Source: a virus
DNA length: 64,000 nt
IMG/VR virus record: IMGVR_UViG_3300050821_018050
Location: 1 to 64,000 of that record
Strand: one strand, 5' to 3'
Part shown: one piece after another, positions 16,252 to 56,240 of the stretch
Layout of the letters: every line of letters starts with the position of its first letter
Numbering within the stretch: the first letter of the stretch is position 1
Notes under the pieces: generated by a model
Seen by the model: the letters and a program-made list of their open reading frames with translations, nothing else
Told to the model about the DNA's origin: nothing
Databases searched by the model: none
Position numbers and translations under genes: made by a program

Positions 16252-16573
16252 ATTTATAGGTTATTGATAAAATGACATTATCGGTGAAATAAATGAGATA
16301 ATCGTGCGAGTCGTGAACTGAACTTAAATTCCAAGTTAGATCAGAGTCATCTGTATCGTCGAATATTTTCGCATAAGCCGCGCCATAGTAAAGAAAATTA
16401 TTGTCGGTATTACGAAATATCATTTCTAAGTAACTAACTATTGCTATAGCAATAGAATCACCAAACCCTATATCTGATACCATTAAGTTAATAAAATCCG
16501 GTCCTTTGGCGCACCATTGATTCCCGTCGCGATCAAGCGATATTTGAAGTCGATCCCATTTTCTGAAGTTCAT
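16244..16573 (-). CDS. small hypothetical protein (109 aa)
   Basis: Starts at ATG 16573 with GAGGA about 6 nt upstream; TTG 16585 is a weaker alternative. The sequence begins MNFRKWDRLQISLDRDGNQW and contains an acidic stretch (DDTDDSDL) and a GFGDSIAIAIVSYLE segment. Its pattern resembles short immunity-like or DUF1828-style phage proteins only vaguely, so no function is given. It overlaps both neighbours, consistent with a tight operon. Confidence 0.65.
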   Translation of the reverse strand: MNFRKWDRLQISLDRDGNQWCAKGPDFINLMVSDIGFGDSIAIAIVSYLEMIFRNTDNNFLYYGAAYAKIFDDTDDSDLTWNLSSVHDSHDYLIYFTDNVILSITYKYA

Positions 16574-16673
16574 ACAATTCCTCAAGCATATCTACTAGTT
16601 GCTCATTCGTAGGTTTTTCGCTAGTAGTCGGTTCAGTATATTCATATGAAAAAATCAGAGATTTATCTTCCAT
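16533..16673 (-). CDS. tiny acidic protein with predicted leaderless mRNA (46 aa)
   Basis: The frame starts at ATG 16673 (MEDKSLIFSYEYTEPTTSEK) and stops at 16533, overlapping the next gene by 41 nt. The start codon lies exactly 6 nt after TATATT (16685-16680), which has TTGCCA 17 bp upstream, so the ATG is the predicted +1. No Shine-Dalgarno is present. It is strongly acidic. This promoter geometry, repeated elsewhere, is the main reason to accept so short a gene. Confidence 0.5.
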   Translation of the reverse strand: MEDKSLIFSYEYTEPTTSEKPTNEQLVDMLEELYELQKMGSTSNIA

Positions 16674-16679
16674 ATAACA

Positions 16680-16708
16680 AATATAACATTAAATATATTA
16701 TTTGGCAA
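16680..16708 (-). promoter_or_regulatory. sigma70-like promoter, start codon at +1
   Basis: On the minus strand: TTGCCA (16708-16703), 17-bp spacer, TATATT (16685-16680), then 6 nt and ATG 16673. The promoter lies inside the preceding tiny gene. Confidence 0.55.
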
Positions 16709-16835
16709 TATATTTTTTACTTTTATTGGATAAATTTAGTGCGAGCATCCTGATAGTTCGATATGTACCGAACTTTTGTTCCCAGGTTAGAGCCGTGTAA
16801 AATTCTAGTATACGATCCTCAAGAGCCCTTGACAT
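16698..16835 (-). CDS. tiny protein of the LExRIL-like family (45 aa)
   Basis: The frame runs from ATG 16835 to TAA 16698 and begins MSRALEDRILEFYTALTWEQ, one of the clearest copies of the LExRIL signature. It ends with a very basic tail (NKSKKYIAK). The start overlaps the end of the upstream 99-aa gene by 17 nt, so translational coupling is likely. Function unknown. Family membership, not length, supports the call. Confidence 0.55.
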   Translation of the reverse strand: MSRALEDRILEFYTALTWEQKFGTYRTIRMLALNLSNKSKKYIAK

Positions 16836-17118
16836 AATGCCTGTTAGGATTCCCCTTGCCATGACTTTCTACGAAAATGACGTATCCGCGCTTGTATCGA
16901 ACACCATGCTCTTCGTCTTCGGCCATAACCATTTCAACCTGAGCTAAAACATAAGGAATTTTTCTTTTTTCGAGACCATCTTCTAATTCTTCGATATCGA
17001 CCATACTCATTGGATCATTGAAAGAATGTAATTTGTTGATAAAAATCTTTTCATTGAGATATTTATGAGAGTCAACTATGACTTTGATATTACTGTACTT
17101 TTGATTTTCTTTGTTCAT
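16819..17118 (-). CDS. small hypothetical protein (99 aa), first gene of a minus-strand cassette
   Basis: Begins MNKENQKYSNIKVIVDSHKY; AAGG lies upstream of the ATG. The middle is acidic and helical (MVDIEELEDGLEKRKIPYVL), then there is a basic VRYKRGYVIFVESHGKGN segment. It has a consensus-like promoter upstream with a leader of about 40 nt. It resembles no family I can name. It leads a five-gene accessory cassette transcribed against the head genes. Confidence 0.65.
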   Translation of the reverse strand: MNKENQKYSNIKVIVDSHKYLNEKIFINKLHSFNDPMSMVDIEELEDGLEKRKIPYVLAQVEMVMAEDEEHGVRYKRGYVIFVESHGKGNPNRHYVKGS

Positions 17119-17165
17119 TTTTAGTCTACCTTAACTAGTTTTATTAAAACGTCCCGTTTCTTATT

Positions 17166-17194
17166 AACTTATCATAATGTCAAGATATTGTCAA
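17166..17194 (-). promoter_or_regulatory. sigma70-like promoter for the 15904-17118 cassette
   Basis: On the minus strand: TTGACA (17194-17189), 17-bp spacer, TAAGTT (17171-17166). Unlike most promoters in this window it leaves a leader of about 40 nt before the ATG at 17118. Confidence 0.55.
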
Positions 17195-17205
17195 CAAAAT
17201 AAACA

Positions 17206-17252
17206 CTAGGATATTTAGAGTCGATTTTTCGCAAAATCTATCCTAATAATTA
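17206..17252 (+). promoter_or_regulatory. hairpin plus variant late motif upstream of the capsid operon
   Basis: TAGGAT (17207-17212) can pair with ATCCTA near 17240-17245, enclosing an inner hairpin GATTTT-TCG-AAAATC type. The right arm merges into CCTAATAAT (17242-17250), a one-base variant of the late core. The first capsid gene starts 50 nt further on behind AAGGAG. This could be a promoter with an RNA structure near its start, or chance. Confidence 0.35.
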
Positions 17253-17302
17253 CTTGAGGTTGAGCATAAGCCAACCGTAACTTTACTTTTAAGGAGTAAA
17301 CA

Positions 17303-17761
17303 ATGAGTGTTTTTAAAGCTGCGGCTCATATGCGTGATTTGCAACAACGTTTGCAAAACATTTTGCCAGACGCTACTATTTTTACGGCCAATGTCGATCC
17401 AACTGATGGAATGCCGACTTTGACTATTTTAACCGAAGCCGAAAACGAAAATGTTAAAATTTACGTTGACGGTAATGCAGGTCGTGTAGATGGATTGGGA
17501 TTGCCACAACAAGCATATAGCCCACACATCTGTTCTATCGTGCAAGATTCAGCTACCGCTGATGCTGCTGAATTCAAATCAAGAGCAAATATTGTAGCTG
17601 CTGCTGCAAAACTTGGTATGAAAGTAATTTTAACTAAAGCTGCTTCTGCTGGCGCTGCCACTACTTGGGCACTTGCTCAAGCTGCTGTAACTGCTGACAG
17701 TGGTGCTATTTCAATCACAATGCCAAGCGATGATATCAATCCATTAACGATGTCGCAATAA
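17303..17761 (+). CDS. capsid decoration or head protein candidate (152 aa)
   Basis: A small Ala-rich protein immediately before scaffold and capsid genes, with a strong AAGGAG ribosome-binding site. Composition and length fit a head decoration protein, but no signature is visible. Codon use (many GCT codons) resembles that of the abundant capsid genes and differs from the accessory genes, suggesting high expression. Confidence 0.6.
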   Translation: MSVFKAAAHMRDLQQRLQNILPDATIFTANVDPTDGMPTLTILTEAENENVKIYVDGNAGRVDGLGLPQQAYSPHICSIVQDSATADAAEFKSRANIVAAAAKLGMKVILTKAASAGAATTWALAQAAVTADSGAISITMPSDDINPLTMSQ

Positions 17762-17779
17762 GGTTAGGGGGAAATCAAT

Positions 17780-18634
17780 ATGAAATTCTCAGACCAAGAA
17801 ATCGACGCATTGTTAGCCTCTGTTGAGGATGCAATGGCTCAAGCTGATAAGCTTGCAAAGTCTATGCCAGGAGCACACCCACAAGTCGCGCCTGCAAAAC
17901 CTATGATGGCTCCTAAGCCAGTTATGGGCACTGCAGCGCCAATGGCAGCTCCTATGAAAAAAGAAGGCGAAGATGAGCAAGCCGCTCCTGATGCCGTAGC
18001 TCCCGAAGCTGCTGCACCAGAAGCCGCTCCTGCAGCCCCGGCTCCTGATGCTGCCCCTGATGCACCGCAAGGTGATGATCAGTTGCAAGCAGATGCCCAA
18101 GATCAAGGTGAAATCTCTGATGAAGAGCTTCAACAAATCTATGCATCAATGGATCCAGCAGAGCTTCAACGCCATTGTGCTATTATTCAATCGCTTATGG
18201 GCCAATCTGACGCCGCTCCTGAAGCAGCACCTGCTGCACCAGAAGCTGCCCCAGCTCCAGAAGCTCCAGCCGCATCACCAGATGCTATGAAGGCTGAAGG
18301 TTGTGCAGATGATGAAGAAATGGGTAAATCAGAAGGTTTCAAGAAATTGAAAGCCGAAAATGATGCTCTCAAAAAATCACTCGACAAAGTTGTAGCTGCT
18401 ATGGGGAACGCTTTCAAGCCAACCCGTAAAGCTGTAACCAACATTGAGTACATCAGTAAATCAGAACAAGCTACCGACGACAAGCCGTTAGTAAAATCTG
18501 AAGTGATTGCGCAACTAAACAAAATCACAGCTTCTCCTAGTCTTTCTAAGTCTGAGAGAATCTCAATTAACGATTTCATCCTCACGGGTGGGTCACAAAA
18601 AGAAGTCAAAAATATCCTTAAAGGAGGAAAATAG
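17780..18634 (+). CDS. prohead core/scaffold protein candidate
   Basis: An acidic, low-complexity protein of 284 residues placed just before the major capsid protein, the usual scaffold position. Residues about 40-190 are Ala/Pro/Glu repeats (APEAAPEAAP-like). The C-terminal third is helical and ends in a compact basic segment (KEVKNILKGGK), as in scaffolds that bind the capsid shell. It contains four KSE motifs (MGKSEGF, ISKSEQA, LVKSEVI, LSKSERI), more per length than nearly all neighbours. That fits a core protein cut into small pieces by the prohead protease. A GGGGG stretch serves as ribosome-binding site. Confidence 0.75.
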   Translation: MKFSDQEIDALLASVEDAMAQADKLAKSMPGAHPQVAPAKPMMAPKPVMGTAAPMAAPMKKEGEDEQAAPDAVAPEAAAPEAAPAAPAPDAAPDAPQGDDQLQADAQDQGEISDEELQQIYASMDPAELQRHCAIIQSLMGQSDAAPEAAPAAPEAAPAPEAPAASPDAMKAEGCADDEEMGKSEGFKKLKAENDALKKSLDKVVAAMGNAFKPTRKAVTNIEYISKSEQATDDKPLVKSEVIAQLNKITASPSLSKSERISINDFILTGGSQKEVKNILKGGK

Positions 18635-18636
18635 TA

Positions 18637-20025
18637 ATGGACTTGATTAAGCAATTAGAATCGCTGGTTAAGACCTTAGAAGCGGGAAATTATAATTCCG
18701 CTCCGGGTACACTGGTACAAGGGTCTGCTTTGCAGTCAGAAGATCTTTCTTCTGTAATGCATAACGTGACCTTCACTCAAGAAGAGATTAAGCTTCAAAA
18801 GCTTTTCGGCAAAAAGAAAGCAAAATCTCTTACAATCCAATTCAATCGCCAACTGTCTTATGGACGTTTCGGCGGATCAGCACAACGCGAAGGCGCTGTG
18901 GGTGATGTTGACGTAGGTGACTACGTTCGTGCTACGGTCCCTATGTGCTTTTATAGCCATGTGCGCCGTGTCACGGAAGCTGCAAATCTCGTAGAAGCAT
19001 TCGACGGTATCAAAGCCGAAGATCGCGAAGCGGAAAACGCAGCAATCAAATTAGCTGCTGATATCGAGTTTGATCTTTTTAAAGGTAAAGCTGATTTCTC
19101 AAATGCAGGTGTATTTGATGGTCATCCGAACGCTATGCCAGAGCTTCCAAATATGCTCGGCTTAGATGCTCAAATCCGTCAGTCTGATATGCTCGTTACA
19201 ACCCAAGACTTGATGTTTGCTGCTTATGGTAGCAATCAATCAGTTGTTCTGGCTCAAAACGCTGCATTAGACCAAATCGTTATCGAAGATGCACGTTTAC
19301 GCGCTCGCTTGAATTTCTCTCAAGCTAAAAATCTTTATATCGATCCATCTGTTCTCTCTAGCTACAATAAAAAAGTAGCTTTAGGAACTGGTGCAAACAG
19401 CCTACAACGCATTGTTCTCGCAGGTGGCCCACAAACGGCTTCTGGTGCGGAACTTCGCGAACAATGGACCAATCACGGTAACGTGAAACTCGAAGAATCA
19501 GATTTCCTTCGTGGTAAAACTGGCCCATTGCGTCCAAACATTGGATCATCTGCTGCTCCAGCAATTACTACCCAACCGGCTGCTTCTGGTTCAGGTTCAC
19601 TTCTCGCTGCAGGCGCTTACATTTATACTGTAACCGCTTCTAACGAACGCGGTGAATCACCAGCTACGGCTTGTGCTTCAGTAACTGTAACTGCAGGTCA
19701 AATCGTTACCTTGACGATCACTGCTCAATCAGGCATCAAGTACTATAGCGTATATCGCGGAACGACTGCAAAAAATGCAGCATTCATCGGTAACGTTGCA
19801 GCAACTGGCGGACCAGTAGTATTTACTGACCTTGGCAATAAAGCGCCAGGTTTCGTAACTGGCTACTTGATCGACGAAAAAACCTGGGAAATGCATGACT
19901 TAGCTCCTTACAGCCGTAAAAAGCTCGCTCAAGCTGACCTTTCTACTCCAGAAGCGCATTACGCGTTTACCACGGTAGCTGGATACCAACCTCGTAAAAA
20001 TGTCATCGTTGACAACTTATTTTAA
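18637..20025 (+). CDS. major capsid protein with an inserted Ig/Fn3-like domain
   Basis: Forms the head shell. Evidence is its place after the scaffold gene, a very strong AGGAGG ribosome-binding site, 462 residues, and HK97-like features (a helical N-terminal arm, then TIQFNRQLSYGRFGG). LQSE at residues 32-35 would give a short propeptide if the KSE-like motif is a protease site. Residues about 305-402 form a separate beta-rich module (GAYIYTVTASNERGESPAT, then KYYSVYRGT) typical of Fn3/Ig-like surface domains. The polypeptide returns to capsid-like sequence for the last 60 residues. A strong terminator follows. Confidence 0.85.
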   Translation: MDLIKQLESLVKTLEAGNYNSAPGTLVQGSALQSEDLSSVMHNVTFTQEEIKLQKLFGKKKAKSLTIQFNRQLSYGRFGGSAQREGAVGDVDVGDYVRATVPMCFYSHVRRVTEAANLVEAFDGIKAEDREAENAAIKLAADIEFDLFKGKADFSNAGVFDGHPNAMPELPNMLGLDAQIRQSDMLVTTQDLMFAAYGSNQSVVLAQNAALDQIVIEDARLRARLNFSQAKNLYIDPSVLSSYNKKVALGTGANSLQRIVLAGGPQTASGAELREQWTNHGNVKLEESDFLRGKTGPLRPNIGSSAAPAITTQPAASGSGSLLAAGAYIYTVTASNERGESPATACASVTVTAGQIVTLTITAQSGIKYYSVYRGTTAKNAAFIGNVAATGGPVVFTDLGNKAPGFVTGYLIDEKTWEMHDLAPYSRKKLAQADLSTPEAHYAFTTVAGYQPRKNVIVDNLF

Positions 20026-20048
20026 TTAATAATTTCAAATAGTTATTC

Positions 20049-20082
20049 AAAAGCCTCGGCACTTCGGTTCCGGGGCTTTTTT
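20049..20082 (+). terminator. strong intrinsic terminator after the capsid gene
   Basis: An 11-bp stem (AAAAGCCTCGG with CCGGGGCTTTT, one G-T pair), a 10-nt loop and a T-run. It separates the capsid operon from the sigma70-driven block that follows. Confidence 0.9.
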
Positions 20083-20084
20083 GT

Positions 20085-20113
20085 TTGACTTAGTAGTAAA
20101 AGTATAGTATAAT
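20085..20113 (+). promoter_or_regulatory. consensus sigma70 promoter, ATG at +1
   Basis: TTGACT (20085-20090), 17-bp spacer, perfect TATAAT (20108-20113), then 6 nt and the ATG of the HNH gene at 20120. Predicts a leaderless mRNA. Confidence 0.85.
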
Positions 20114-20119
20114 AAATAA

Positions 20120-20596
20120 ATGCGCACCAAAGAGAAAGAACGAGAGTATAATAAAAGAGCATACGAAAAGAATAAAGAAAAACGTAAAGCAGCTGCGAAG
20201 GCTTATCATGAGACCAATAGAGAAATCGTTATTGAAAAAATGAAACGTAGATATGATGATCCAGAATATACTTCCAAAGCTGTGGCTCGCGCCTTAGAAT
20301 GGGATAAATCTCATCCGATGGCAGTAAAGGAAAGAGTTGCAAGGTATACCAAACGCACCCAACCCCAAAAGAATGCCCGCACCGCACTATACCGTGCCCA
20401 AAAACTCCAAGCTACGCCGCCATGGCTCACTATTGAGCAAAAGCGTCAGATCCAGAAGATCTATAAGGATTGCCCACGAGGATATCACGTAGATCACATC
20501 GAACCGCTCAATGGGAAAGATCGTAAAGGTCTGCATGTACCTTGGAATCTCCAAATCTTGCCTAAACTCGATAATTTAAAGAAATCAAATAAATAA
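20120..20596 (+). CDS. HNH endonuclease
   Basis: A probable homing-type nuclease of 158 residues. The N-terminal half is very basic and helical (KEREYNKRAYEKNKEKRKAA). The C-terminal HNH core shows YHVDHIEPLNGKD followed by VPWNLQILPKLDNLKKSNK, with the His-Asp-His and Asn residues of the fold. It sits directly behind the capsid gene terminator and has its own consensus promoter. The ATG is the predicted transcription start and there is no Shine-Dalgarno. Confidence 0.88.
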   Translation: MRTKEKEREYNKRAYEKNKEKRKAAAKAYHETNREIVIEKMKRRYDDPEYTSKAVARALEWDKSHPMAVKERVARYTKRTQPQKNARTALYRAQKLQATPPWLTIEQKRQIQKIYKDCPRGYHVDHIEPLNGKDRKGLHVPWNLQILPKLDNLKKSNK

Positions 20597-20625
20597 TTGA
20601 CTAATCCGCATCCCCGTGTTACCAT
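20597..20625 (+). promoter_or_regulatory. sigma70-like promoter, GTG at +1
   Basis: TTGACT (20597-20602), 17-bp spacer, TACCAT (20620-20625), then 6 nt and GTG 20632. It begins within a few bases of the HNH stop codon. Confidence 0.7.
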
Positions 20626-20631
20626 TTAAAG

Positions 20632-20766
20632 GTGACCACTCACCAGTTCAGAGCGTTAATCTATCTTCAGCGCATGAATTACACTGTATTGTGTAAACAT
20701 CATTTATTTGATTTATATGTGTCTTTATATAAAATACAATTACTTGGTCCACTGGTGCTCAAATGA
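20632..20766 (+). CDS. tiny protein 1 of a tandem paralogous cluster (44 aa)
   Basis: The frame runs from GTG 20632 to TGA 20766 and encodes MTTHQFRALIYLQRMNYTVL and a hydrophobic remainder (HLFDLYVSLYKIQL). The N-terminus matches the next gene (MTTHELRCFDFL), so the two look like tandem duplicates. The GTG is the predicted +1 of a sigma70 promoter and the stop overlaps the next ATG. Function unknown. Confidence 0.6.
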   Translation: MTTHQFRALIYLQRMNYTVLCKHHLFDLYVSLYKIQLLGPLVLK

Positions 20767-20963
20767 CTACTCACGAACTTCGCTGCTTTGATTTTCTTAG
20801 AGCATATAAAACTTTTAAAGGGCATAAGTATCATGTCATGTATTTGGTTTTAGTAAGGGAATTGCATAATATTCACAATGCACATAAAAAAATTATTGAA
20901 GGTCAGCAGGCAATTATTAGATCAAGAGGACAGTTTAGTAGGATATTTAGAGGTGCCAAATGA
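20763..20963 (+). CDS. tiny protein 2 of a tandem paralogous cluster (66 aa)
   Basis: Begins MTTHELRCFDFLRAYKTFKG, then a hydrophobic helix-like part and a basic end (RSRGQFSRIFRGAK). Overlaps both neighbours by 4 nt (ATGA), so the cluster is translated as a coupled series. Function unknown. Confidence 0.68.
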   Translation: MTTHELRCFDFLRAYKTFKGHKYHVMYLVLVRELHNIHNAHKKIIEGQQAIIRSRGQFSRIFRGAK

Positions 20964-21127
20964 ATATAAGTGCCCTAACCCCCTTGGAACGCAGGATATT
21001 CGACACTCTTCACCAGTATCGCTCTATTGAACTTCTCCATGCGCATTTATTTGATTTATTCCTTTCTCTGAATAGTAAACAGAGAGCTTTCGAACAATAT
21101 GGGAGGATTTATAATGAGCGCCCATGA
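20960..21127 (+). CDS. tiny protein 3 of a tandem cluster, LExRIL-like (55 aa)
   Basis: The frame from ATG 20960 to TGA 21127 encodes MNISALTPLERRIFDTLHQY and then LLHAHLFDLFLSLNSK. It combines the LExRIF signature with a HLFDL(Y/F)xSL segment shared with tiny protein 1, linking the two small-protein groups. Coupled to its neighbours by overlaps. Function unknown. Confidence 0.6.
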   Translation: MNISALTPLERRIFDTLHQYRSIELLHAHLFDLFLSLNSKQRAFEQYGRIYNERP

Positions 21128-21251
21128 ATGCCGGTGTTTATCTATTTTAAATGATTATTACCATCCAATGTTTAATTGGACCATTCCAACCATATATGCA
21201 TCTCTTTGGGTAAGCTTAAGCGATAAATACGTTAGATCGGCGGCCTTATGA
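21114..21251 (+). CDS. tiny protein 4 of a tandem paralogous cluster (45 aa)
   Basis: The frame from ATG 21114, behind GGGAGG, to TGA 21251 encodes MSAHECRCLSILNDYYHPMF and TIYASLWVSLSDKY. The M-(T/S)-x-H-E-x-R-C start matches tiny protein 2. Overlaps the previous gene by 14 nt and the next by a TGATG junction. Function unknown. Confidence 0.62.
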   Translation: MSAHECRCLSILNDYYHPMFNWTIPTIYASLWVSLSDKYVRSAAL

Positions 21252-21538
21252 TGCCAAGTAGATTTGAAATGCGTATTTATATGCAAACCTTACAGAGGTT
21301 CACGAAATTGCGTACCCAGATTTGGATGGATCCGTTCATGTTCAAAATGGTCGCTAATATTTGTCGGAAACTTGAAAAGTCTACTAGAAATAGTCGTTGG
21401 ACTTGGGACACCAGAAATATTCCTACTTATGTGACTACTGCAACTATAATTATAGATCCATTTGTAATGAACTTAAGTGGCGGTTATTCCACAGATCCTA
21501 CTGAACCAGTTTATACGATACATAGAAATAAAAAATGA
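21251..21538 (+). CDS. small protein 5 of the tandem cluster (95 aa)
   Basis: Begins MPSRFEMRIYMQTLQRFTKL, an FExRIY variant of the same signature. The start may be ATG 21248 or 21251; both overlap the previous stop. The C-terminal half is polar and Thr/Pro-rich. Function unknown. Confidence 0.62.
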   Translation: MPSRFEMRIYMQTLQRFTKLRTQIWMDPFMFKMVANICRKLEKSTRNSRWTWDTRNIPTYVTTATIIIDPFVMNLSGGYSTDPTEPVYTIHRNKK

Positions 21539-21744
21539 TCAGAAAAATTATTGACTTTTTGTTGAATGAGCGGTATCATAAAAGAATGAACCAAAGCCAT
21601 AAATTAGTTATCGTAGAGCATACGTTCGAAGGCGAAGATAAATTTTGGGATTCTCTCATGGATAAGAATCAATTTATGACTATCACTGACTGTAAAGCTG
21701 AAAAAGCTTTTTCCGGTAGTTTAATTGGCGAAGTACGCTGCTAA
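21535..21744 (+). CDS. small hypothetical protein (69 aa; 52 aa from the promoter-matched start)
   Basis: The frame opens at ATG 21535 (4-nt overlap with the previous gene). A promoter lies inside it whose predicted +1 is the in-frame ATG at 21586 (MNQSHKLVIVEHTFEGEDKF). Both forms may be made: a coupled long form from the upstream message and a leaderless short form. The sequence is short and acidic with no recognised domain. Confidence 0.6.
   Translation: MIRKIIDFLLNERYHKRMNQSHKLVIVEHTFEGEDKFWDSLMDKNQFMTITDCKAEKAFSGSLIGEVRC
21551..21579 (+). promoter_or_regulatory. internal sigma70-like promoter, ATG at +1
   Basis: TTGACT (21551-21556), 17-bp spacer, TATCAT (21574-21579), 6 nt, then the in-frame ATG at 21586. 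Confidence 0.6.
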
Positions 21745-21923
21745 TGGATATTCTATTTGTAATACTTATTTGTGCTGGCGCGGCCATTCTAATGAATATT
21801 AAAGAGGCTCGCGAAAATAAAAAAGTAGATAGCAAAATTATTAAATGTGATCTTCATAAATGGGATACGAATGCAGTAGGAATGCTGGCATGTAACAATT
21901 GTGGAAAGATAGCGGGAACTTAG
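21744..21923 (+). CDS. small membrane protein with Cys/His cluster (59 aa)
   Basis: The frame from ATG 21744 to TAG 21923 encodes one N-terminal membrane helix (DILFVILICAGAAILM) and a short cytoplasmic-type tail with CDLHKW and CNNCGK, a possible zinc site. Coupled to both neighbours by 1-nt overlaps (TAATG, TAGTG). Function unknown. Confidence 0.6.
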   Translation: MDILFVILICAGAAILMNIKEARENKKVDSKIIKCDLHKWDTNAVGMLACNNCGKIAGT

Positions 21924-22609
21924 TGAGTATTTTTGGTAAAAAAGTAGAACCTATTCACGATAGGATTAGGCGAGCACCAATTAAAGTGCTTTTGCCAATT
22001 CCAATTAAGGGTGATTTTTACGGTAATGCTAGATGCTTCAATCTTAATGAAGCTCCAGTAGGAGTTCGGGTATCTCCATTACGGTGGTATGAACGTAATA
22101 AAAATCTTTGGGCTAAAAATGGAAGTTTCCTCTGCGGCGGTGCTCTAGTTGATTTGGCTAGAGGCGAAACTCCTCGCGATCTTGACATGTATTTCAGAGA
22201 TGAAACATCTATCAAAAGAACTTTGCATGAAGCAGCTAATAATGGCTATATTATTGAAGACCAAAATTTTTGGGATTTAGCCCGAGGAGTTTATCAGATT
22301 GTAATTAAACATCCTGGTGATAAATCAATGTATCCTGATTTGAATATGGTGGTATCACAATATTTTGGTGATATTGAGCACGTTTTAGGCTTATTCGATT
22401 TAGACATTTGCTGTGTCGGCGTATGTTCGGATACATTCACTTATACAGTGAATTGGCATAGATCTTTTGCAGATAAAGTATTTCAGTTTCATGTCGTGCG
22501 CAATATGTTAGTAACCCAAAAGCGTGTCTTAAAGTACGCAGAGAAGGGTTTCACTTTTGTTCCGTGTACGACTTATAAAGAAATTCCAGCAGGCCAAAAA
22601 TTTTATTGA
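21923..22609 (+). CDS. phage nucleotidyltransferase-fold protein (228 aa)
   Basis: FLCGGALVDLARGETPRDLDMYF is the G-G-x(n)-D-x-D pattern of nucleotidyltransferase-fold proteins, seen in many phage proteins of unknown substrate. The third catalytic carboxylate may lie in the DLDICCVGV segment. I use GTG 21923, which overlaps the previous stop (TAGTG); a start at 21899 would overlap it more. Substrate could be tRNA, a protein or a small molecule; nothing here decides. Confidence 0.65.
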   Translation: MSIFGKKVEPIHDRIRRAPIKVLLPIPIKGDFYGNARCFNLNEAPVGVRVSPLRWYERNKNLWAKNGSFLCGGALVDLARGETPRDLDMYFRDETSIKRTLHEAANNGYIIEDQNFWDLARGVYQIVIKHPGDKSMYPDLNMVVSQYFGDIEHVLGLFDLDICCVGVCSDTFTYTVNWHRSFADKVFQFHVVRNMLVTQKRVLKYAEKGFTFVPCTTYKEIPAGQKFY

Positions 22610-22634
22610 CTTTTAGAATAAAGAAAGGTAAGAT
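22606..22634 (+). promoter_or_regulatory. sigma70-like promoter, ATG at +1
   Basis: TTGACT (22606-22611, overlapping the upstream stop), 17-bp spacer, TAAGAT (22629-22634), 6 nt, ATG 22641. GAAAGG in the spacer is not transcribed if +1 is the ATG. Confidence 0.75.
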
Positions 22635-22640
22635 TGTTAT

Positions 22641-23900
22641 ATGAGTTTAAGCACTATTGAAGAAGGCATTATCTACTTACTCCACCACGAACCGTATTAC
22701 GCCCATCTTTTGATGCGTATGCGTCGTTTTAAGACTAGCAAACGCCCAGGGGCTAAAGAAGATAAAGATGCTCCTCCGCCAACTGATAAAGACGGAAAAC
22801 CTCTGGACGCTGAGCAGATTGAAGCAAGTAAATTCACTGCAGGCGTGAATATCACTGACGGAATCAATCTGTACTATAACGAAAAATGGTTTAATTTACT
22901 TAGAGATAAGCATGGTCTTGGCGTTGTAGCTGGAGTCCTCAAGCATGAAGCTGAGCATATCACATTCATGCATTTGAATGGTCGCGAAAAGGGTATGGAA
23001 CCAAAACTCCATAATATTGCCGCCGACTGTTCAATTAATCAATATAATTCACTTTTAAAACCTTGGCTTGATTCGGGAGTTGGCGTATCTTTAGAAAGCT
23101 TTCGTAAGCTCGTAAATAATCCAGCCATTGAAGCTCAGCAGACGACCGAGTATTACTACGCCGCCCTTCAGCAAGAATCTGAGAAGCAAAAAGGCTCAAA
23201 AGAATTTCAAGATGCATTGAAGGAAATGGGCGAAGGCGGAGACGATCACTCTATGTGGGGCGATGGTGTACCAGAAGAAGTGGCTAAGCGTATCGCTAAG
23301 TATGCTGTTGAGCAGGCTGCCGCATCTGTTGGTCGCGGGAATATCCCAGGCCATCTGCAAAAAGCTATTGATGCCTTCAATAAAGAAACTCTCAATTGGA
23401 AGAAAATTCTCCAACGTTTTTGGTCTAAAGGTTTGACGATTGAAACTCGCAATACTCGTATGCGCACTAATCGCCGATTTGGCATCAAGCAGCCAGGCAA
23501 ACGCTCTAAACCATTGACTCAAGTTGCTATGGTGATCGATACGTCTGGATCTATGTCAGATGATGACCTTAACGCAATTTTTGTAGAAGCATTTAAGATG
23601 CATGAAGCTGGCGCTACGGTTGATATCATTGAATGCGATACCGCTGTGCATAAAGTGTGGCGTTATACCGGCAAAAAAACCGGTATTCAGGTCAATGGTC
23701 GCGGTGGAACTAGTTTTCAGCCGGGCTTAGATGCTGCCAAAAAATTAAATCCAGATGCAATCATTTACTTCACCGATGGTGATGGCGAGAGAGATTTCAC
23801 CACCCCAAAAGGAATTCCTATTTTATGGGTACTCACTCAAGAGGGTCACTTTGGTTCGATCCCAGAAAGCGCCCGCAAAGTATGGATGAAGACAAAGTAA
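22641..23900 (+). CDS. VWA-domain protein with N-terminal metallopeptidase-like region
   Basis: A two-part protein of 419 residues. The N-terminal part contains KHEAEHI (residues 101-107), an HExxH zinc-site pattern as in the DUF2201 metallopeptidase-like domain. The C-terminal part is a von Willebrand A domain with a full MIDAS start (IDTSGSMS; D300, S302, S304) and a later IIYFTDGDGE. This arrangement pairs with MoxR-type AAA ATPases, and one lies two genes downstream. Such pairs act as ATP-driven remodelling or metal-insertion systems; the phage target is unknown. The mRNA is predicted leaderless. Confidence 0.85.
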   Translation: MSLSTIEEGIIYLLHHEPYYAHLLMRMRRFKTSKRPGAKEDKDAPPPTDKDGKPLDAEQIEASKFTAGVNITDGINLYYNEKWFNLLRDKHGLGVVAGVLKHEAEHITFMHLNGREKGMEPKLHNIAADCSINQYNSLLKPWLDSGVGVSLESFRKLVNNPAIEAQQTTEYYYAALQQESEKQKGSKEFQDALKEMGEGGDDHSMWGDGVPEEVAKRIAKYAVEQAAASVGRGNIPGHLQKAIDAFNKETLNWKKILQRFWSKGLTIETRNTRMRTNRRFGIKQPGKRSKPLTQVAMVIDTSGSMSDDDLNAIFVEAFKMHEAGATVDIIECDTAVHKVWRYTGKKTGIQVNGRGGTSFQPGLDAAKKLNPDAIIYFTDGDGERDFTTPKGIPILWVLTQEGHFGSIPESARKVWMKTK

Positions 23901-24280: not shown

Positions 24281-24305
24281 CTTATTAAAGTAATCATGTT
24301 ATTCT
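24277..24305 (+). promoter_or_regulatory. sigma70-like promoter for the AAA gene
   Basis: TTGACT (24277-24282, overlapping the upstream stop), 17-bp spacer, TATTCT (24300-24305). Here a leader of about 34 nt with GAAAGG precedes ATG 24346, unlike the leaderless cases. Confidence 0.7.
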
Positions 24306-41292: not shown

Positions 41293-41530
41293 GTTCAGGG
41301 AATAGAGTCAATACTAAATCACCATATTTATAAACTCTGTAGGCGTCTAATGTTGGCTCGTACTCAAAGGTTGCCTCACGATAGTTGCATTGATATTTTT
41401 TCCCAAAAATCACGCATAGAGCTATCCAGTAAGTAGTCTTAATATCAATTGTTTGTCGCCCGCGAGTTTTTCTGTAGGAATGGCTGAGAATATAATCAAG
41501 TATACGATTTTTAAGGTCTTTTTTTATCAT
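41279..41530 (-). CDS. small protein of the LExRIL-like family (83 aa)
   Basis: I use ATG 41530 (MIKKDLKNRILDYILSHSYR), where the family signature is N-terminal; a longer frame to 41572 would overlap more of the upstream gene. The rest includes TYWIALCVIFGKKYQ. It overlaps the sigma-like gene by 20 nt and converges on the VTC-domain gene with a 14-nt overlap. Function unknown. Confidence 0.65.
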   Translation of the reverse strand: MIKKDLKNRILDYILSHSYRKTRGRQTIDIKTTYWIALCVIFGKKYQCNYREATFEYEPTLDAYRVYKYGDLVLTLFPELKAF

Positions 41531-41813
41531 GCAGCGCCTTAAGTTCTTTAAGAGATTGTCGCATTCCGTCATGAAATTTCTTAGTTTTGACTATACCGAT
41601 CAATAAACGCTGTCTTACGCGTTCTCTGGTAACTCCAAAGTCTTTGGCTATGTTATTAATCGGCTCTCCCATAGCGTAAAGCTTCATAGTCCATAATATT
41701 TCGATATTATATGGATTTCGTTGAAATAATGGTATGTAATGCAATACCTCTGATTTGGTAGGTATACCATCATTAAACCTACGCATAAATCTAAAAAACA
41801 TATTTCTAAGCAT
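41511..41813 (-). CDS. small protein with sigma-region-4-like HTH (100 aa)
   Basis: The segment GEPINNIAKDFGVTRERVRQ (about residues 49-68) matches the helix-turn-helix of sigma70 region 4.2, including the characteristic VTRERVRQ. There is no visible region 2. It could be a transcription regulator that mimics region 4, for example a -35 or coactivator factor, or simply an HTH protein. I choose ATG 41813: it lies at +2 of a TTGACA-17-TATTAT promoter, while a start at 41864 would lie upstream of that promoter. Confidence 0.65.
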   Translation of the reverse strand: MLRNMFFRFMRRFNDGIPTKSEVLHYIPLFQRNPYNIEILWTMKLYAMGEPINNIAKDFGVTRERVRQRLLIGIVKTKKFHDGMRQSLKELKALHDKKRP

Positions 41814-41820
41814 TATATAA

Positions 41821-41849
41821 ATAATAGCATATTTGTCGGGATTTGTCAA
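41821..41849 (-). promoter_or_regulatory. sigma70-like promoter, start codon at +2
   Basis: On the minus strand: TTGACA (41849-41844), 17-bp spacer, TATTAT (41826-41821), 7 nt, ATG 41813. It abuts the plus-strand late motif at 41851, giving back-to-back divergent promoters. Confidence 0.75.
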
Positions 41850-41850
41850 T

Positions 41851-41859
41851 CCTAATATT
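41851..41859 (+). promoter_or_regulatory. late-type promoter motif, GTG at about +2
   Basis: CCTAATATT with TAATAT at 41853-41858, then 7 nt to GTG 41866. There is no Shine-Dalgarno, so the predicted mRNA is leaderless or nearly so. Confidence 0.6.
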
Positions 41860-48382: not shown

Positions 48383-48394
48383 CTTTTTCCTTAA

Positions 48395-48781: not shown

Positions 48782-48788
48782 AAACTTT

Positions 48789-49262
48789 CTACTGAGTAAT
48801 AACGCAATTCGCTTTGATAGTAAAAGTACAACTTGCGTTTACCCCATCACTGCTATAGGTGCCCGGTGGTAACTCAGCTAGGAATCCTCCGTTTAAGCTA
48901 TAAACTCCCCAGATATTACCGTTAATACAAATACCACTTTCTGCAAAAGTGTTCGGATAAGATTGGGTAAAGCCATTACAAAATTGCACTGGCGTAATAA
49001 CAGTACCAGGCGTACCTTGGCTTCCATTTGATCCAGGATTGCCATTTAAAACTACTGAAGAAGTTCCATCAGAGCAAGTGATTAGAGAACCTCCATTAGA
49101 AGCTACAGGGGAGCCAACCGCTAAGGTAGCAACACTACAGCCACTGCCGGATACTCCCGCAGGCCCGGCAGCGCCAACGTCACCTTTTGGCCCTTTTCCA
49201 CATGCAGATAGAGTTAAACTGAAGCAAAGTAATACCGGTAACATTTTCAAATATAATTTCAT
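48789..49262 (-). CDS. collagen-like lipoprotein (157 aa)
   Basis: A signal peptide (KMLPVLLCFSLTLSA) ends in the lipobox LSAC (residues 18-21), then a Gly-x-y stretch (GKGPKGDVGAAGPAG), a second Gly-rich linker and a Cys-containing C-terminal domain (FAESGICINGNIWGVYSLNG). It is therefore exported and lipid-anchored in the host envelope. Phage lipoproteins of this kind may block superinfection or alter the surface. It has its own TTGACA promoter and an AAGGAG ribosome-binding site. Confidence 0.82.
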   Translation of the reverse strand: MKLYLKMLPVLLCFSLTLSACGKGPKGDVGAAGPAGVSGSGCSVATLAVGSPVASNGGSLITCSDGTSSVVLNGNPGSNGSQGTPGTVITPVQFCNGFTQSYPNTFAESGICINGNIWGVYSLNGGFLAELPPGTYSSDGVNASCTFTIKANCVITQ

Positions 49263-49279
49263 TAGGTCTCCTTACTTAT

Positions 49280-49308
49280 AGTGTACTTTCTTTATAGGGA
49301 TATGTCAA
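49280..49308 (-). promoter_or_regulatory. sigma70-like promoter for the lipoprotein gene
   Basis: On the minus strand: TTGACA (49308-49303), 17-bp spacer, TACACT (49285-49280), then a short leader with AAGGAG before ATG 49262. Confidence 0.72.
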
Positions 49309-49314
49309 TATAAA

Positions 49315-49884: not shown

Positions 49885-49914
49885 ATGTGTCTCCCTTGAT
49901 ATCGTTTATTTTTA

Positions 49915-49943
49915 AAAATACCCGGTAATTCAACAAATATCAA
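49915..49943 (-). promoter_or_regulatory. sigma70-like promoter for the dNMP kinase gene
   Basis: On the minus strand: TTGATA (49943-49938), 17-bp spacer, TATTTT (49920-49915), leader of about 25 nt. Confidence 0.55.
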
Positions 49944-50008
49944 CCACGAGTTGTTAACGTGTTTAAGTATATATAATTGCTTATCTATTAAATCGAACAT
50001 GACCCATT

Positions 50009-50017
50009 CCTAATATT
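50009..50017 (+). promoter_or_regulatory. late-type promoter motif CCTAATATT
   Basis: Exact core 20 nt before the fibre ATG 50038, with CAGGAGAA as ribosome-binding site. Confidence 0.7.
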
Positions 50018-50037
50018 TATGTCAGGAGAAATACACA

Positions 50038-52611: not shown

Positions 52612-52818
52612 TTAACCCTTACGGGCTTTAAATAAGGAATTTACAATCGCTTCCCAGCTTACGAACCATTCTTTAGATGGGACGCTTTTTTTAGAAAGCA
52701 GAATCTCATCTTCAAATTGGAAACGAACGCCTTCTTGTGTAGGGACTGCACCTAAGATCTTAATATCTTTTTTTGCTTGTGGTTTTTTTGCGGCTAGAAG
52801 TGGTTTCGATTTTTGCAT
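52612..52818 (-). CDS. small hypothetical protein (68 aa)
   Basis: A basic N-terminus (KSKPLLAAKKPQAKKDIKIL), then VRFQFEDEILLSKKSVPSKE. Last gene of a minus-strand operon, overlapping the upstream gene by 59 nt and ending directly against the fibre stop. Function unknown. Confidence 0.58.
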   Translation of the reverse strand: MQKSKPLLAAKKPQAKKDIKILGAVPTQEGVRFQFEDEILLSKKSVPSKEWFVSWEAIVNSLFKARKG

Positions 52819-53215
52819 TGAGTGACTCCAATTGTTTTTGGGCTCGTAAAAAAGCCTGTTGTGTTTTGAACAGTTTAGTTAAAACGATAGATGGAATTTC
52901 GTCAACGTCGTTATGAAAAGAAATCGTTCCTTCAGAATCAATGGTCCCATAAATTGGGCCAATATCGAAATCTAATGAATCAATAGACAAAGGTTGCCCA
53001 TCGATAAACTCTTTTCCAAATTGATATGACTTTTTATCTTCTCTAATGTTAAATGTGCCATCTCGGAAAACGTGATTTACAGTAACTTTTTTGCCAGCAA
53101 AACGATCCATATCATCAATAAAATTTGGACCAACATCTCGCGCAAAACGTAATACAGACAATGGTTTCAACTTTACGGTCAGACCTTCTTTTAATACTAA
53201 TTTCTTAACTGCCAT
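52760..53215 (-). CDS. small protein with SH3-like N-terminal region (151 aa)
   Basis: The start ATG 53215 is chosen because AGGAG lies 7 nt upstream; a longer frame starts at 53239. Residues about 1-80 (VKKLVLKEGLTVKLKPLSVL; AGKKVTVNHVFRDGTFNIRE) look like a small barrel domain seen in short phage proteins. The C-terminus is a coiled-coil-like basic tail. Function unknown. Confidence 0.65.
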   Translation of the reverse strand: MAVKKLVLKEGLTVKLKPLSVLRFARDVGPNFIDDMDRFAGKKVTVNHVFRDGTFNIREDKKSYQFGKEFIDGQPLSIDSLDFDIGPIYGTIDSEGTISFHNDVDEIPSIVLTKLFKTQQAFLRAQKQLESLNAKIETTSSRKKTTSKKRY

Positions 53216-53225
53216 TTGATTTCTC

Positions 53226-54056
53226 CTAGTGATGAGCAATTGCGAATAATCGCGTAGGTTGCTCGGGGTTTAAATAATACAATTTATATACATCAATCAT
53301 TCCATTTGGATAAGTCTTCATCAAACGCCATACCCAAATTTTATACATTAGTGCCCAAAACCAGTTTCTCTTTTTCAGCGGAAACCATATTACGTAAGCG
53401 AGCGTGCGAGCATCTGTATTAGATGGGTCCGCAAACATCCCGATCATCTGCCCGACAAGGAGACCCACCCACCGAAGTGGAGTAGTAAGCCCTCCGGCAG
53501 CGAAATCCTTAAGGGCCAATAACCCAGGACTTCGACCAAACCAGCTATAAAAGCAAAATTTAGTCGGATCGCTTACGTTAAAACAGAATCTTGCTTTGCC
53601 TAAACCGATAATCCTTGCAAGTAGAAGAGTTTGTTGAGACTCTGTTACTTGTCCTGCATCTGGATATGAGGTATCGGCTTCAGTAAGATTAGATTTGGAA
53701 TTAAAAGAATTCATACCTTCGGCGAAAAGATCTTCCACGCCTAAGTTTAAATCTTTAATAATCATTTCGAATGCAAGACGAGCTGTTGTGTTATCCATTG
53801 AATCATATTCAGTGGATCCCGGTGAACGTCGTTGCAATCCTGGCTGAACTGTAAGGATTTTGAAAATGTCAACCAATGCCTTAGCCCGAGCTTTTGCATC
53901 TTCTAAAAATGCAGCCTGAGATAATCCATTGATAAGATGCTCGACAGAATATAGCACACCATCTTGAGACTGTTGACCGGGTTGAAGGGTCGTTAATCCA
54001 GTCTCATCAGTAAATGCCATAGATTGAGCATCAAACGGGGTTCTTTGGTCGCCCAT
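53226..54056 (-). CDS. hypothetical protein (276 aa)
   Basis: No family recognised. A helical middle (AKARAKALVDIFKILTVQ; DLNLGVEDLFAEGMNSF), then a C-terminal part rich in Trp/Tyr with WFPLKKRNWFWALMYKIWVW, amphipathic rather than clearly transmembrane. The start is ATG 54056 behind AAAGGAAA. Main gene of a minus-strand operon headed by a tRNA-like gene. Could be a virion or membrane-associated protein. Confidence 0.65.
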   Translation of the reverse strand: MGDQRTPFDAQSMAFTDETGLTTLQPGQQSQDGVLYSVEHLINGLSQAAFLEDAKARAKALVDIFKILTVQPGLQRRSPGSTEYDSMDNTTARLAFEMIIKDLNLGVEDLFAEGMNSFNSKSNLTEADTSYPDAGQVTESQQTLLLARIIGLGKARFCFNVSDPTKFCFYSWFGRSPGLLALKDFAAGGLTTPLRWVGLLVGQMIGMFADPSNTDARTLAYVIWFPLKKRNWFWALMYKIWVWRLMKTYPNGMIDVYKLYYLNPEQPTRLFAIAHH

Positions 54057-54225
54057 TGGCTTTCCTTTCAGATCTTTTAATGCGAAATTGTTCTAACTCA
54101 ATATCACTTCTGGCCGCTTGGGAAAGGAATAAATCTCTTAATTTACCACTCGATAGAGCAGCTTCTTTTAGACTAATTCTAATCAAAACCTTACGATGAC
54201 GAATTTCTTGAGATAGGAGTCGCAT
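54031..54225 (-). CDS. small basic helical protein (64 aa)
   Basis: Starts at ATG 54225 (MRLLSQEIRHRKVLIRISLK), with AAGGA upstream. Strongly basic and helical, ending RKANGRPKNPV. Overlaps the next gene by 26 nt. Function unknown. Confidence 0.6.
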   Translation of the reverse strand: MRLLSQEIRHRKVLIRISLKEAALSSGKLRDLFLSQAARSDIELEQFRIKRSERKANGRPKNPV

Positions 54226-54231
54226 CAATGA

Positions 54232-54573
54232 TTATCCTTCGGTAGGTTTTTCGTTTTGAGCTTTAGTGAGTAATGCTTTTTGACGAGCTAGCATTACTGC
54301 AGCGTCAGCATTAGGATTTTTGGTTGCAGCACTAGAAAGAACGTCATCTTCGCCGTAGCCTGCGATTGCGATTAACATCGTATGGGGTGTAGCTTCGTCG
54401 AGCGCAGCACAGAAAGTTTGCGCAGCTTCTTGAGCATCGCGAATTTCTACTTTATTCCCACGGTCTTCGTAATTTTTACGAGCAGCCGCAGATAACACGG
54501 TTACATCCATATCTTCAGTTTTTGAGGTGCCATCGTCTTGTTTAGTGGTCATGCTTACTTTTTTAATTTCCAT
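54232..54573 (-). CDS. small hypothetical protein (113 aa)
   Basis: Begins MEIKKVSMTTKQDDGTSKTE; the body is Ala-rich and helical (DAQEAAQTFCAALDEATPHT, AVMLARQKALLTKAQ). Overlaps the upstream gene by 19 nt. Function unknown. Confidence 0.62.
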   Translation of the reverse strand: MEIKKVSMTTKQDDGTSKTEDMDVTVLSAAARKNYEDRGNKVEIRDAQEAAQTFCAALDEATPHTMLIAIAGYGEDDVLSSAATKNPNADAAVMLARQKALLTKAQNEKPTEG

Positions 54574-54743
54574 TGTACTTCTACTCCGTTTTTGTTTAAG
54601 TATGATTCGAGCCCAGCGAGGATACAGAAAGTCTGTATACTTTTCTCGTTGTTGCAGTCAAATCTACCTTGTTGCATAAAGGCAGTGTGGGCAAATGTTT
54701 TGATCTCTTGAATTGCCTTATCATCGATCTCAACTTTATCCAT
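54555..54743 (-). CDS. small hypothetical protein (62 aa)
   Basis: Begins MDKVEIDDKAIQEIKTFAHT, then CNNEKSIQTFCILAGLESYL. First protein gene after the tRNA-like gene, 16 nt downstream, with AGGAGC as ribosome-binding site. Function unknown. Confidence 0.6.
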   Translation of the reverse strand: MDKVEIDDKAIQEIKTFAHTAFMQQGRFDCNNEKSIQTFCILAGLESYLNKNGVEVQWKLKK

Positions 54744-54759
54744 GCTGCTCCTTAAATTC

Positions 54760-54854
54760 TGGTGTCAAAGTGTGGATTGGAACCACATTACCGAGTTTAT
54801 CTCGGACTAAGAATTAGCAAAACCCTCGCAGAGTTCACACCTCTGTGCTTTGAC
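54760..54854 (-). tRNA. tRNA-like gene, class II with long variable arm, possibly Ser(GCT)
   Basis: Read on the minus strand, GTCAAAG pairs fully with CTTTGAC, followed by ACCA, so the CCA end is encoded. A D-arm-like hairpin (CAGA/TCTG), a long variable arm (CCGAG/CTCGG, loop ATAAA) and a good T-arm (TGTGG-TTCCAAT-CCACA) are present; total 95 nt. The expected anticodon loop TTGCTAA would read GCT (Ser), but its stem pairs poorly (several G-T or mismatched pairs), and base 8 is C where T is usual. It may be a diverged tRNA or a tRNA-like RNA. Its 5' end is exactly the predicted transcription start. Confidence 0.55.
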
Positions 54855-54860
54855 ATAACC

Positions 54861-54889
54861 AGGATAACACGACTCATCTAATCTGTCAA
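54861..54889 (-). promoter_or_regulatory. sigma70-like promoter, +1 at the tRNA-like 5' end
   Basis: On the minus strand: TTGACA (54889-54884), 17-bp spacer, TATCCT (54866-54861), 6 nt, then the first base of the acceptor stem at 54854. It also drives the six genes downstream. Confidence 0.75.
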
Positions 54890-54963
54890 ACATATTTTTT
54901 ATCTAAAATACCCAAAATATATCATGTGAAATATCAATAGGTTAACTCAAGGGTAACTAAATA

Positions 54964-54972
54964 CCTAATATC
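54964..54972 (+). promoter_or_regulatory. late-type promoter motif variant CCTAATATC
   Basis: One-base variant of the core, 28 nt before TTG 55001. Confidence 0.5.
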
Positions 54973-55000
54973 TTAGTATAATTATTTTTAAGGGGATGGC

Positions 55001-55450
55001 TTGGATCACAAATCGGGTAATACAAAAAATAACGGCGCTGCGCCTCAACCCGACATGAGCGGTATTGAGAAAGATGTCTTACATATTCGCGAATTGATGG
55101 ATGTCAAGTTCGAAGCCAATAGAGCCACATTAGAAAAGAATACAGCGGACATTTCTCAGATGAGTTTAATTTTAGGGGAAAACGTTCGCCAACTCGGGAT
55201 CCATATTCAAGGAGTAAAAGAGCTTAAAGAAATGAATGGATTGATGCGAGAAGAAATCAGTTTATTTAGAAATCAGGTTGCAGCAGAAGTAAACGAAATA
55301 AACTCAAGAATGACTAAAGTAGAAGTTCCGTTCGTTTGGTTTAGAACAACAGCTTCTTTTGCAGAAAAAACTCTCTCAATAGTTAAAATCATCATCCTTA
55401 TAGCAATAGGTTTTGGTGCAGACAAAATACTCTCTAAGTTTTTGGAGTAG
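55001..55450 (+). CDS. coiled-coil protein with C-terminal membrane helix, XhlA-like topology (149 aa)
   Basis: Starts at TTG 55001 with AAGGGG 6 nt upstream; an ATG at 54996 is in another frame that soon stops. A long amphipathic helical region (about 20-105) precedes one membrane helix (IVKIIILIAIGFGADKIL). This is the topology of XhlA-type proteins that sit beside holins. The next gene is also a small membrane protein, so a lysis role is plausible but not shown. Confidence 0.65.
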   Translation: MDHKSGNTKNNGAAPQPDMSGIEKDVLHIRELMDVKFEANRATLEKNTADISQMSLILGENVRQLGIHIQGVKELKEMNGLMREEISLFRNQVAAEVNEINSRMTKVEVPFVWFRTTASFAEKTLSIVKIIILIAIGFGADKILSKFLE

Positions 55451-55453
55451 CAA

Positions 55454-55831
55454 ATGTTAGAAAAATTAAATAAAATTTATAAATACCTTACCGAAAAAGG
55501 TATTCCGATGCCATTGGGCTATGATCCGGTATCTAAAAAACCATCTATTACGATCACCTTTGCCCATTTTACTTTTACTATTGCTGTTTTTGCTGTTTTC
55601 AGATATTTAAACAACATGTGTAATATTATGCAAGTTTTGGTTTGCATCATGTTTTGGTCAATGTCTACTGTATTTTATCTTATTCGTCAGATAAATAAAG
55701 CTAAATTCAATTTACAGCAACAAAGTTTTGAATTTGAGGGCGGGGATGGTAATCAAAATAATAACAAAAGAAGCTATGAGCCTCAGTATGCGCCAATGGC
55801 CTCTATAAAGGCAGACGACCCCGACGCTTAG
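55454..55831 (+). CDS. holin-like membrane protein candidate (125 aa)
   Basis: Two hydrophobic segments (ITFAHFTFTIAVFAVF and IMQVLVCIMFWSMSTVFYLI) and a polar C-terminal tail rich in Asn/Gly. It starts 3 nt after the previous stop. The pairing with an XhlA-like gene suggests a holin. It could also be a tail-associated membrane protein. It converges on the next minus gene with a 29-nt overlap. Confidence 0.6.
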   Translation: MLEKLNKIYKYLTEKGIPMPLGYDPVSKKPSITITFAHFTFTIAVFAVFRYLNNMCNIMQVLVCIMFWSMSTVFYLIRQINKAKFNLQQQSFEFEGGDGNQNNNKRSYEPQYAPMASIKADDPDA

Positions 55832-56240
55832 GCTTAATCGTAGCTTTTGGAGCTGGACTCGGTTTGTCTCCTGGGAATTCTTTTACTGATTTCAAAGAAG
55901 CTCTTTCAATAACATCGATAAGAAGTACTTGCTGCATTTCTCTTAATCGAAATTCATTTTCGCTTACATTATAAAGAGCCACATTGATAAAATTGCCCTC
56001 TTTATAGGCTCCCATCATCATGATGCCTTTTTCGAAAAGTTCTTTTGGAGCCCTAAATTGGAAAGTCATACTATTTTCGTCATCTGGGTGCATAAGCTCT
56101 AATTTAAATGGTAAATACAAAGAGGTGAGACCACTTTTAAGGCGCATGTCTGGGAAATCTCCTGAAGTAACTTTTAGTGCGATGGTCCCACCTTCTTGAA
56201 TGGGGGCGTTAACTTGGCTTTTAATAATATATTGTCTCAT
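55803..56240 (-). CDS. small hypothetical protein with predicted leaderless mRNA (145 aa)
   Basis: I choose ATG 56240 (MRQYIIKSQVNAPIQEGGTI) because it lies exactly 6 nt after TATTAT (56252-56247) on the minus strand; a longer frame opens at 56258. A beta-rich body (LTSLYLPFKLELMHPDDENS), then a basic Pro/Lys tail (APKATIKPKRRGRLPL). A single reversed gene between plus-strand tail genes. Function unknown. Confidence 0.65.
   Translation of the reverse strand: MRQYIIKSQVNAPIQEGGTIALKVTSGDFPDMRLKSGLTSLYLPFKLELMHPDDENSMTFQFRAPKELFEKGIMMMGAYKEGNFINVALYNVSENEFRLREMQQVLLIDVIERASLKSVKEFPGDKPSPAPKATIKPKRRGRLPL

Follow-up and report, generated by a model that had tools for sequence, protein, structure and literature searches.

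The stretch analyzed here (the window) comprises 64,000 nucleotides (nt) and forms the first 64 kb of IMG/VR record IMGVR_UViG_3300050821_018050, a 159,805-bp phage contig of 39% GC. At several loci within it, a sigma70-type promoter stands so close to a gene that the start codon follows the −10 hexamer by only six or seven nt, where transcription is expected to begin; the mRNAs of these genes are predicted to be leaderless. An earlier note on the sequence had listed seven such sites. All seven are present letter for letter, but the list missed one further site in the window and fell short of the ~19–20 units found contig-wide.

A homologous major capsid protein (MCP), a common genome order, and an MCP tree place the phage among the Mx1-like phages. 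Among named phages, Myxococcus phage Mx1 (OR576727; MCP 52% identical over 99%) is the nearest relative, and gene order runs as in Mx1: terminase, portal, MCP, virion genes, a block of small minus-strand genes, and replication genes. Relatives were gathered through MCP alignment (80 loci). Comparisons use 16 genomes, the present phage plus 15 relatives, among them Mx1, G016, and G001 (IMGVR 3300035181_002074), the closest relative, at 64–76% nucleotide identity where alignable.

Promoters Placed on Start Codons

The sites in the window, with the open reading frames (ORFs) that they precede, are as follows; matrix scores refer to the weight matrix described below.

20085–20120, plus: sigma70 promoter TTGACT-17-TATAAT, 6 nt to ATG 20120 (predicted +1); matrix score 14.2
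20120–20596, plus: leaderless-type gene, 158 amino acids, endonuclease VII/HNH-like
20597–20632, plus: sigma70 promoter TTGACT-17-TACCAT, 6 nt to GTG 20632
20632–20766, plus: tiny leaderless-type ORF, 44 amino acids, GTG start, without homologue
21551–21586, plus: sigma70 promoter TTGACT-17-TATCAT, 6 nt to ATG 21586, inside ORF 21535–21744
21586–21744, plus: leaderless-type ORF, 52 amino acids
22606–22641, plus: sigma70 promoter TTGACT-17-TAAGAT, 6 nt to ATG 22641
22641–23900, plus: leaderless-type gene, 419 amino acids, DUF2201 putative metallopeptidase plus VWA-like domain (Pfam)
7145–7180, minus: sigma70 promoter TTGACT-17-TAATAT, 6 nt to GTG 7145 of ORF 6837–7145; the site absent from the earlier note
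16673–16708, minus: sigma70-like promoter TTGCCA-17-TATATT, 6 nt to ATG 16673 of ORF 16533–16673
41813–41849, minus: sigma70 promoter TTGACA-17-TATTAT, 7 nt to ATG 41813 of ORF 41511–41813
56240–56274, minus: sigma70-like promoter TTGCTT-16-TATTAT, 6 nt to ATG 56240 of ORF 55803–56240; matrix score 10.0, the weakest of the listed sites

Homologues of the 20120 gene occur in 4 of the 15 relatives, two of the four being leaderless-type as well, and the 100-residue product of ORF 41511–41813 has weak, sub-threshold helix-turn-helix matches. For the gene at 22641, the PHROG name "HNH endonuclease" was dropped because Pfam shows DUF2201. One exact motif match, at 9279–9316 on the plus strand, lies inside a coding gene with only a short ORF after it and is probably due to chance.

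Promoter-to-start distances were obtained by scanning the whole contig for TTGAC-N18-TANNNT (spacer 17) and counting the nt (d) that separate the −10 hexamer from the start codon of any ORF with 20 or more amino acids. The motif occurs 38 times, against 7.6 ± 2.7 in first-order shuffles, while each of the other spacers (13–16 and 18–21) yields 4–12 matches; the enrichment over shuffles at spacer 17 identifies the elements as sigma70-type promoters. A start codon stands at d = 6 in 14 of the 38 promoters and at d = 7 in 3, compared with at most one at d = 6 in shuffles (binomial P ~4e-20 for the combined excess). The earlier note had staked its prediction on a 6-nt peak in a histogram of this kind set against shuffles, and the peak is present. 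A weight matrix whose training set left out this phage and its nearest relative places 19 contig starts at d = 6 or 7 above a score of 12, against 0–3 at four shifted offset pairs. The ~19–20 leaderless-type units amount to about a tenth of genes, typically have a clear −35 at 17 bp, and are spread over the contig: Four form the cluster at 20–23 kb, many lie in the small minus-strand block, and one is on the gene of a conserved, secreted-type subtilase. The leaderless-start observation is confirmed, is stronger than was visible to the earlier note, and extends to the family at large.

Properties of the starts themselves accord with this geometry. ATGs at d = 6 open at least 40 codons in 94% of cases, versus 33% for random ATGs. 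The base at −1 is a pyrimidine in 79% of starts at d = 6 and 76% at d = 7, which means that the preferred initiator shifts along with the ATG. Shine–Dalgarno (SD) sequences, defined by at least four matched bases, precede 25% of leaderless starts in this phage versus 61% of other genes and 14% of random ATGs, which bears out the earlier remark that most of these genes have none; the loss is similar in most other genomes and less clear in G022, G046, and G029. ATG serves as the start in 130 of 134 leaderless genes versus 2599 of 2911 others (P = 0.002), an excess that is supportive only, because the gene caller favors promoter-linked starts.

The spacing also persists across divergence: Orthologues at 32–40% protein identity retain the exact 6–7 nt. 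The S8 subtilase gene (contig 138755–139594, minus, start 139594; Pfam E 1.5e-54) is leaderless-type here, and a −10-like hexamer stands at 6–7 nt in all 8 genomes that carry it, in G003 without a recognizable −35; its signal-peptide-like N terminus follows directly after the start codon. For the DUF2201/VWA gene, the arrangement is present in two of two: The gene at 22641 and its orthologue in G001 begin alike with ATGAGTTTAAGC, at 6 nt.

Recurrence across the Family

The same distance class recurs in the relatives. Of the 38 promoters in G001, 12 have the start codon at d = 6 and 2 have it at d = 7. Thirteen further relatives spanning GC 0.37–0.63 together hold 313 spacer-17 promoters, with 60 at d = 6 and 24 at d = 7 and only ~3–5 at each neighboring offset, although G009, G010, and G013 are mutually close and these pooled counts are not fully independent. 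Nine clade representatives, including the present phage, give 61 (d = 6) and 21 (d = 7) of 203 promoters. In the 13 relatives, starts also cluster at d = 6 and 7 for spacers 16 and 18, and a further broad hump, at 17–22 nt, accompanies SD leaders. The exact leaderless motif was found in 36 of 50 records searched, against few matches for a reversed control pattern.

Taken singly, 12 of the 15 other genomes show the d = 6/7 peak at P < 0.01, and G003 reaches P = 0.06; the peak is absent in Mx1 and G016. In G016, 2 of 59 promoters have the leaderless spacing, and SD-led starts lie at ~18–22 nt. On the MCP tree—one protein, with some weak forks—the leaderless class is spread over the clades, and Mx1 and G016 fall inside leaderless clades; the simplest reading would be two switches from leaderless to SD-led starts. 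The G016 promoter array is unusually dense in its own right: The 59 sigma70 promoters of this 52-kb fragment lie mostly within ~15 kb (about 36–50 kb), on both strands, and serve mainly SD-led starts.

As to the genes concerned, the earlier note had suggested an accessory, "plug-in" format. Among genes of 30–149 amino acids, the leaderless ones are indeed more often without a homologue in the 15 relatives than the others (odds ratio ~3, P ~3e-6), a count that includes ORFs added for their promoter, some of which may be false. The arrangement is also found on conserved genes—the subtilase and a recombination-nuclease-like gene that has it in G010, G013, and G048 though not in Mx1—so the description is only partly right. 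Host-type promoters and a small minus-strand block common to Mx1 suggest that the class is timed early. The subtilase gene itself adjoins a RecA-like gene and is carried by 8 of the 16 genomes.

A Second Expression Class and tRNA-like Genes

Virion-strand genes have SD leaders, and the motif CCTAATATT, with no −35, precedes plus-strand genes, mainly those of the virion, in both this phage and G001; on these grounds the distinct expression mode that the earlier note suggested for the leaderless genes is supported. Promoters of the same sigma70 type are also predicted to drive SD-led transcripts elsewhere in the genome. Features of this second class, and the tRNA-like gene discussed below, are as follows.

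41851–41859, plus: candidate late-promoter motif CCTAATATT
206, 2835, 7219, 27130, 28115, 32088, plus: other CCTAATATT copies
35173, 43631, 50009, 57160, 63265, plus: further CCTAATATT copies
Window 41820–41859, contig 66072–66112, contig 101883–101923: back-to-back pairs, minus-strand sigma70 promoter and plus-strand CCTAATATT
49262–49308, minus: sigma70 promoter TTGACA-17-TACACT with a 17-nt leader containing AAGGAG before ATG 49262, for contrast
54760–54889, minus: class II tRNA-like gene (54854–54760; ARAGORN Ala, anticodon tgc) with its promoter

CCTAATAT is strand-biased, with 21 plus and 2 minus copies here and 23 and 0 in G001; in G003 it is not enriched. In the three back-to-back pairs of this contig, the TTGAC of a leaderless minus-strand promoter ends 1–2 nt from a plus-strand CCTAATATT, and G001 likewise has three pairs at 1–3 nt; such pairs could act as an early/late switch. 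G001 and Mx1 encode a sigma-factor-like protein (phrog_351, PHROGs), and homologues of the G001 protein occur in all other genomes examined except G016 and the present contig. No sigma factor was found in the present contig, from which the corresponding region seems to be missing; the phage sigma factor found in relatives probably reads CCTAATATT.

The contig ends carry a terminase gene at one and a GroEL-like gene at the other. In Mx1 and G001, the helicase, sigma-factor-like, and phosphoesterase genes lie between these two; their absence here makes it likely that the contig lacks some kilobases. Within the small-gene block, ~20 kb (contig 80–101 kb) has poor coding scores and few called genes between the leaderless ones, and small genes there are probably under-called. 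A host assignment from MCP matches in metagenome-assembled genomes was rejected: Three full-length matches (Planctomycetes, Saccharibacteria, and Elusimicrobia) and one Chthonomonas fragment are likely binning artefacts.

The promoter arrangement extends to tRNA-like genes. The first base of the one in the window follows the −10 of a strong sigma70 promoter (TTGACA-17-TATCCT, minus strand) by exactly 6 nt, and G001 repeats the arrangement at 154081–154169 (minus) with predicted anticodon cat instead of tgc. For 122 tRNA calls in the 16 genomes, there are 12 promoter matches within 80 nt, 5 of them at 6–7 nt. These positions suggest that some tRNA-like transcripts begin at the mature 5′ end. 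Rfam gave no match for the tRNA-like RNA of the window and, for that of G001, only tRNA-Sec far below the gathering score.

Interpretation and Comparison with Known Systems

We consider it highly probable that the host's main sigma factor reads these promoters and that their position makes RNA synthesis begin with the first base of the start codon, giving leaderless mRNAs. With the −10 hexamer at −12 to −7 followed by six discriminator bases, +1 would fall on the A or G of ATG or GTG; in the 7-nt class the start would be shifted by one. An mRNA with +1 on the start codon has neither leader nor SD sequence. Host RNA polymerase would initiate at these promoters and ribosomes on the 5′-terminal AUG, while virion-strand genes would be served by SD leaders and CCTAATATT, probably read with a phage sigma factor. 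The leaderless prediction of the earlier note is well supported by the distance peak, its recurrence in relatives, the pyrimidine at −1, SD loss, orthologues, and a positive control (below). Promoter geometry, start position, SD loss, and conservation across relatives are all read from the DNA; early timing, 70S initiation, and the true 5′ ends are inferred.

Several points weigh against this interpretation. Geometry would not distinguish a leader of 1–3 nt from none, and leaderless translation would presuppose host ribosomes capable of it. The sites at 56240 and 16673 are individually weak. Mx1, the only named close relative, has 1 of 31 promoters at d = 6 and uses SD leaders instead. Finally, leaderless starts show no special 5′ structure or downstream A-richness when compared with other starts, and both features were set aside as determinants.

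An improbable alternative takes the promoters as real, with +1 on or close to the start codon, but has most of the protein made from longer readthrough mRNAs, the start-codon promoters only adding to expression. Some leaderless genes do sit close behind same-strand genes (the 20120–22641 cluster), and a few keep SD-like bases upstream (73749 minus and 22641); yet in most genomes SD sequences are about as rare at leaderless starts as at random ATGs, so that readthrough mRNAs would be poorly read, and orthologues at 32–40% protein identity retain the exact spacing. That the motif is a regulatory operator not setting the 5′ end is more improbable still: The elements are strongly conserved and near the start codon, where repressors often bind, but they fit the sigma70 consensus at the optimal spacer of 17 bp, promoters of the same kind are also found ahead of SD leaders, and no extra operator-like sequence was seen at them. 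Chance, with the earlier note having picked those look-alikes of AT-rich DNA that adjoin start codons, has almost no probability. Loose TTG/TANNNT patterns do abound whatever the spacer; the strict motif, however, is enriched at spacer 17 and d = 6/7 only, relative to shuffles, shifted offsets, and other spacers, and the pattern holds in relatives of 37–63% GC, so chance and AT-richness were rejected.

Beyond start-codon promoters as the source of leaderless mRNAs, a broader picture is speculative and on balance doubtful: The host-polymerase phase of this environmental myophage family might consist of transcripts that start at the feature itself—leaderless mRNAs, and tRNA-like RNAs from the mature 5′ end with RNase P unneeded. 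Divergent early/late promoter pairs could shut down the leaderless arm, and whether a phage uses leaderless or SD-led starts may depend on the translation habits of its host. Mx1 and G016, which kept the promoters with SD leaders, offer natural replicates for asking when leaderless starts are used and whether they track the host. Gene callers reliant on ribosome-binding sites may miss or mis-start such small genes; a simple caller overlooked several here.

In the open PMC literature we found no description of this promoter arrangement for this widespread virus family; other journals may hold one. Messages that begin at the start codon are not categorically new: A Thermus phage and some bacteria have them. 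Among phages, lambda cI and Thermus phage phiYS40 are the main known examples; to these is now added an entire clade (GC 37–63%) in whose genomes a sharp leaderless class coexists with an SD-led one.

For Thermus thermophilus phage phiYS40, leaderless middle and late transcripts are reported (PMC3594737, where the original work is cited). A programme of the phiYS40 type is defined by a leaderless class of this timing together with changing host IF2/IF3 levels. As the positive control, phiYS40 has a start codon at 6 nt in 11 of 43 promoters, seven of them at annotated gene starts. By comparison, eight other phages with at least one promoter have 2 of 118 at leaderless spacing (T4 1/16, SPO1 0/4, Goe26 1/11, DAC19 0/12, phiCbK 0/12, P1 0/4, phiKZ 0/11, Lbab1 0/48); PHB04 and Mx8 had no promoter matches and are uninformative as controls. 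The present phage shares with phiYS40 large size, a tail sheath, and TTGAC-17-TANNNT promoters whose −10 stands 6 nt ahead of the start codon. The likeness has limits: The leaderless class reported for phiYS40 is middle/late, whereas here it comprises mostly small, putatively early genes coexisting with SD-led promoters of the same type; the phiYS40 host is Thermus, and phiYS40 is not among the MCP search matches of the present phage.

In Deinococcus, leaderless genes have their −10 motif ~6–7 bp ahead of the ORF (PMC12340547), and the Deinococcus-Thermus genes with a −10 motif adjacent to the ORF resemble those described here in having TANNNT at that distance and no leader. Nearly a third of Deinococcus-Thermus genes carry that motif, whereas the present phage has it on about a tenth, typically with a clear −35. 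A 2011 survey reported leaderless genes in 8 of 33 delta-proteobacterial genomes (PMC3160421). Mx1 has the same family, layout, and TTGAC-17-TANNNT promoters in its small-gene block, but its start codons lie mostly 24–34 nt past the −10, with SD leaders. The mRNA of phage lambda cI, named as a leaderless mRNA (PMC9031893), begins at its start codon as predicted here; it represents a single gene of an Escherichia coli phage, whereas the arrangement described here covers ~19–20 genes on one contig and is a family-wide habit.

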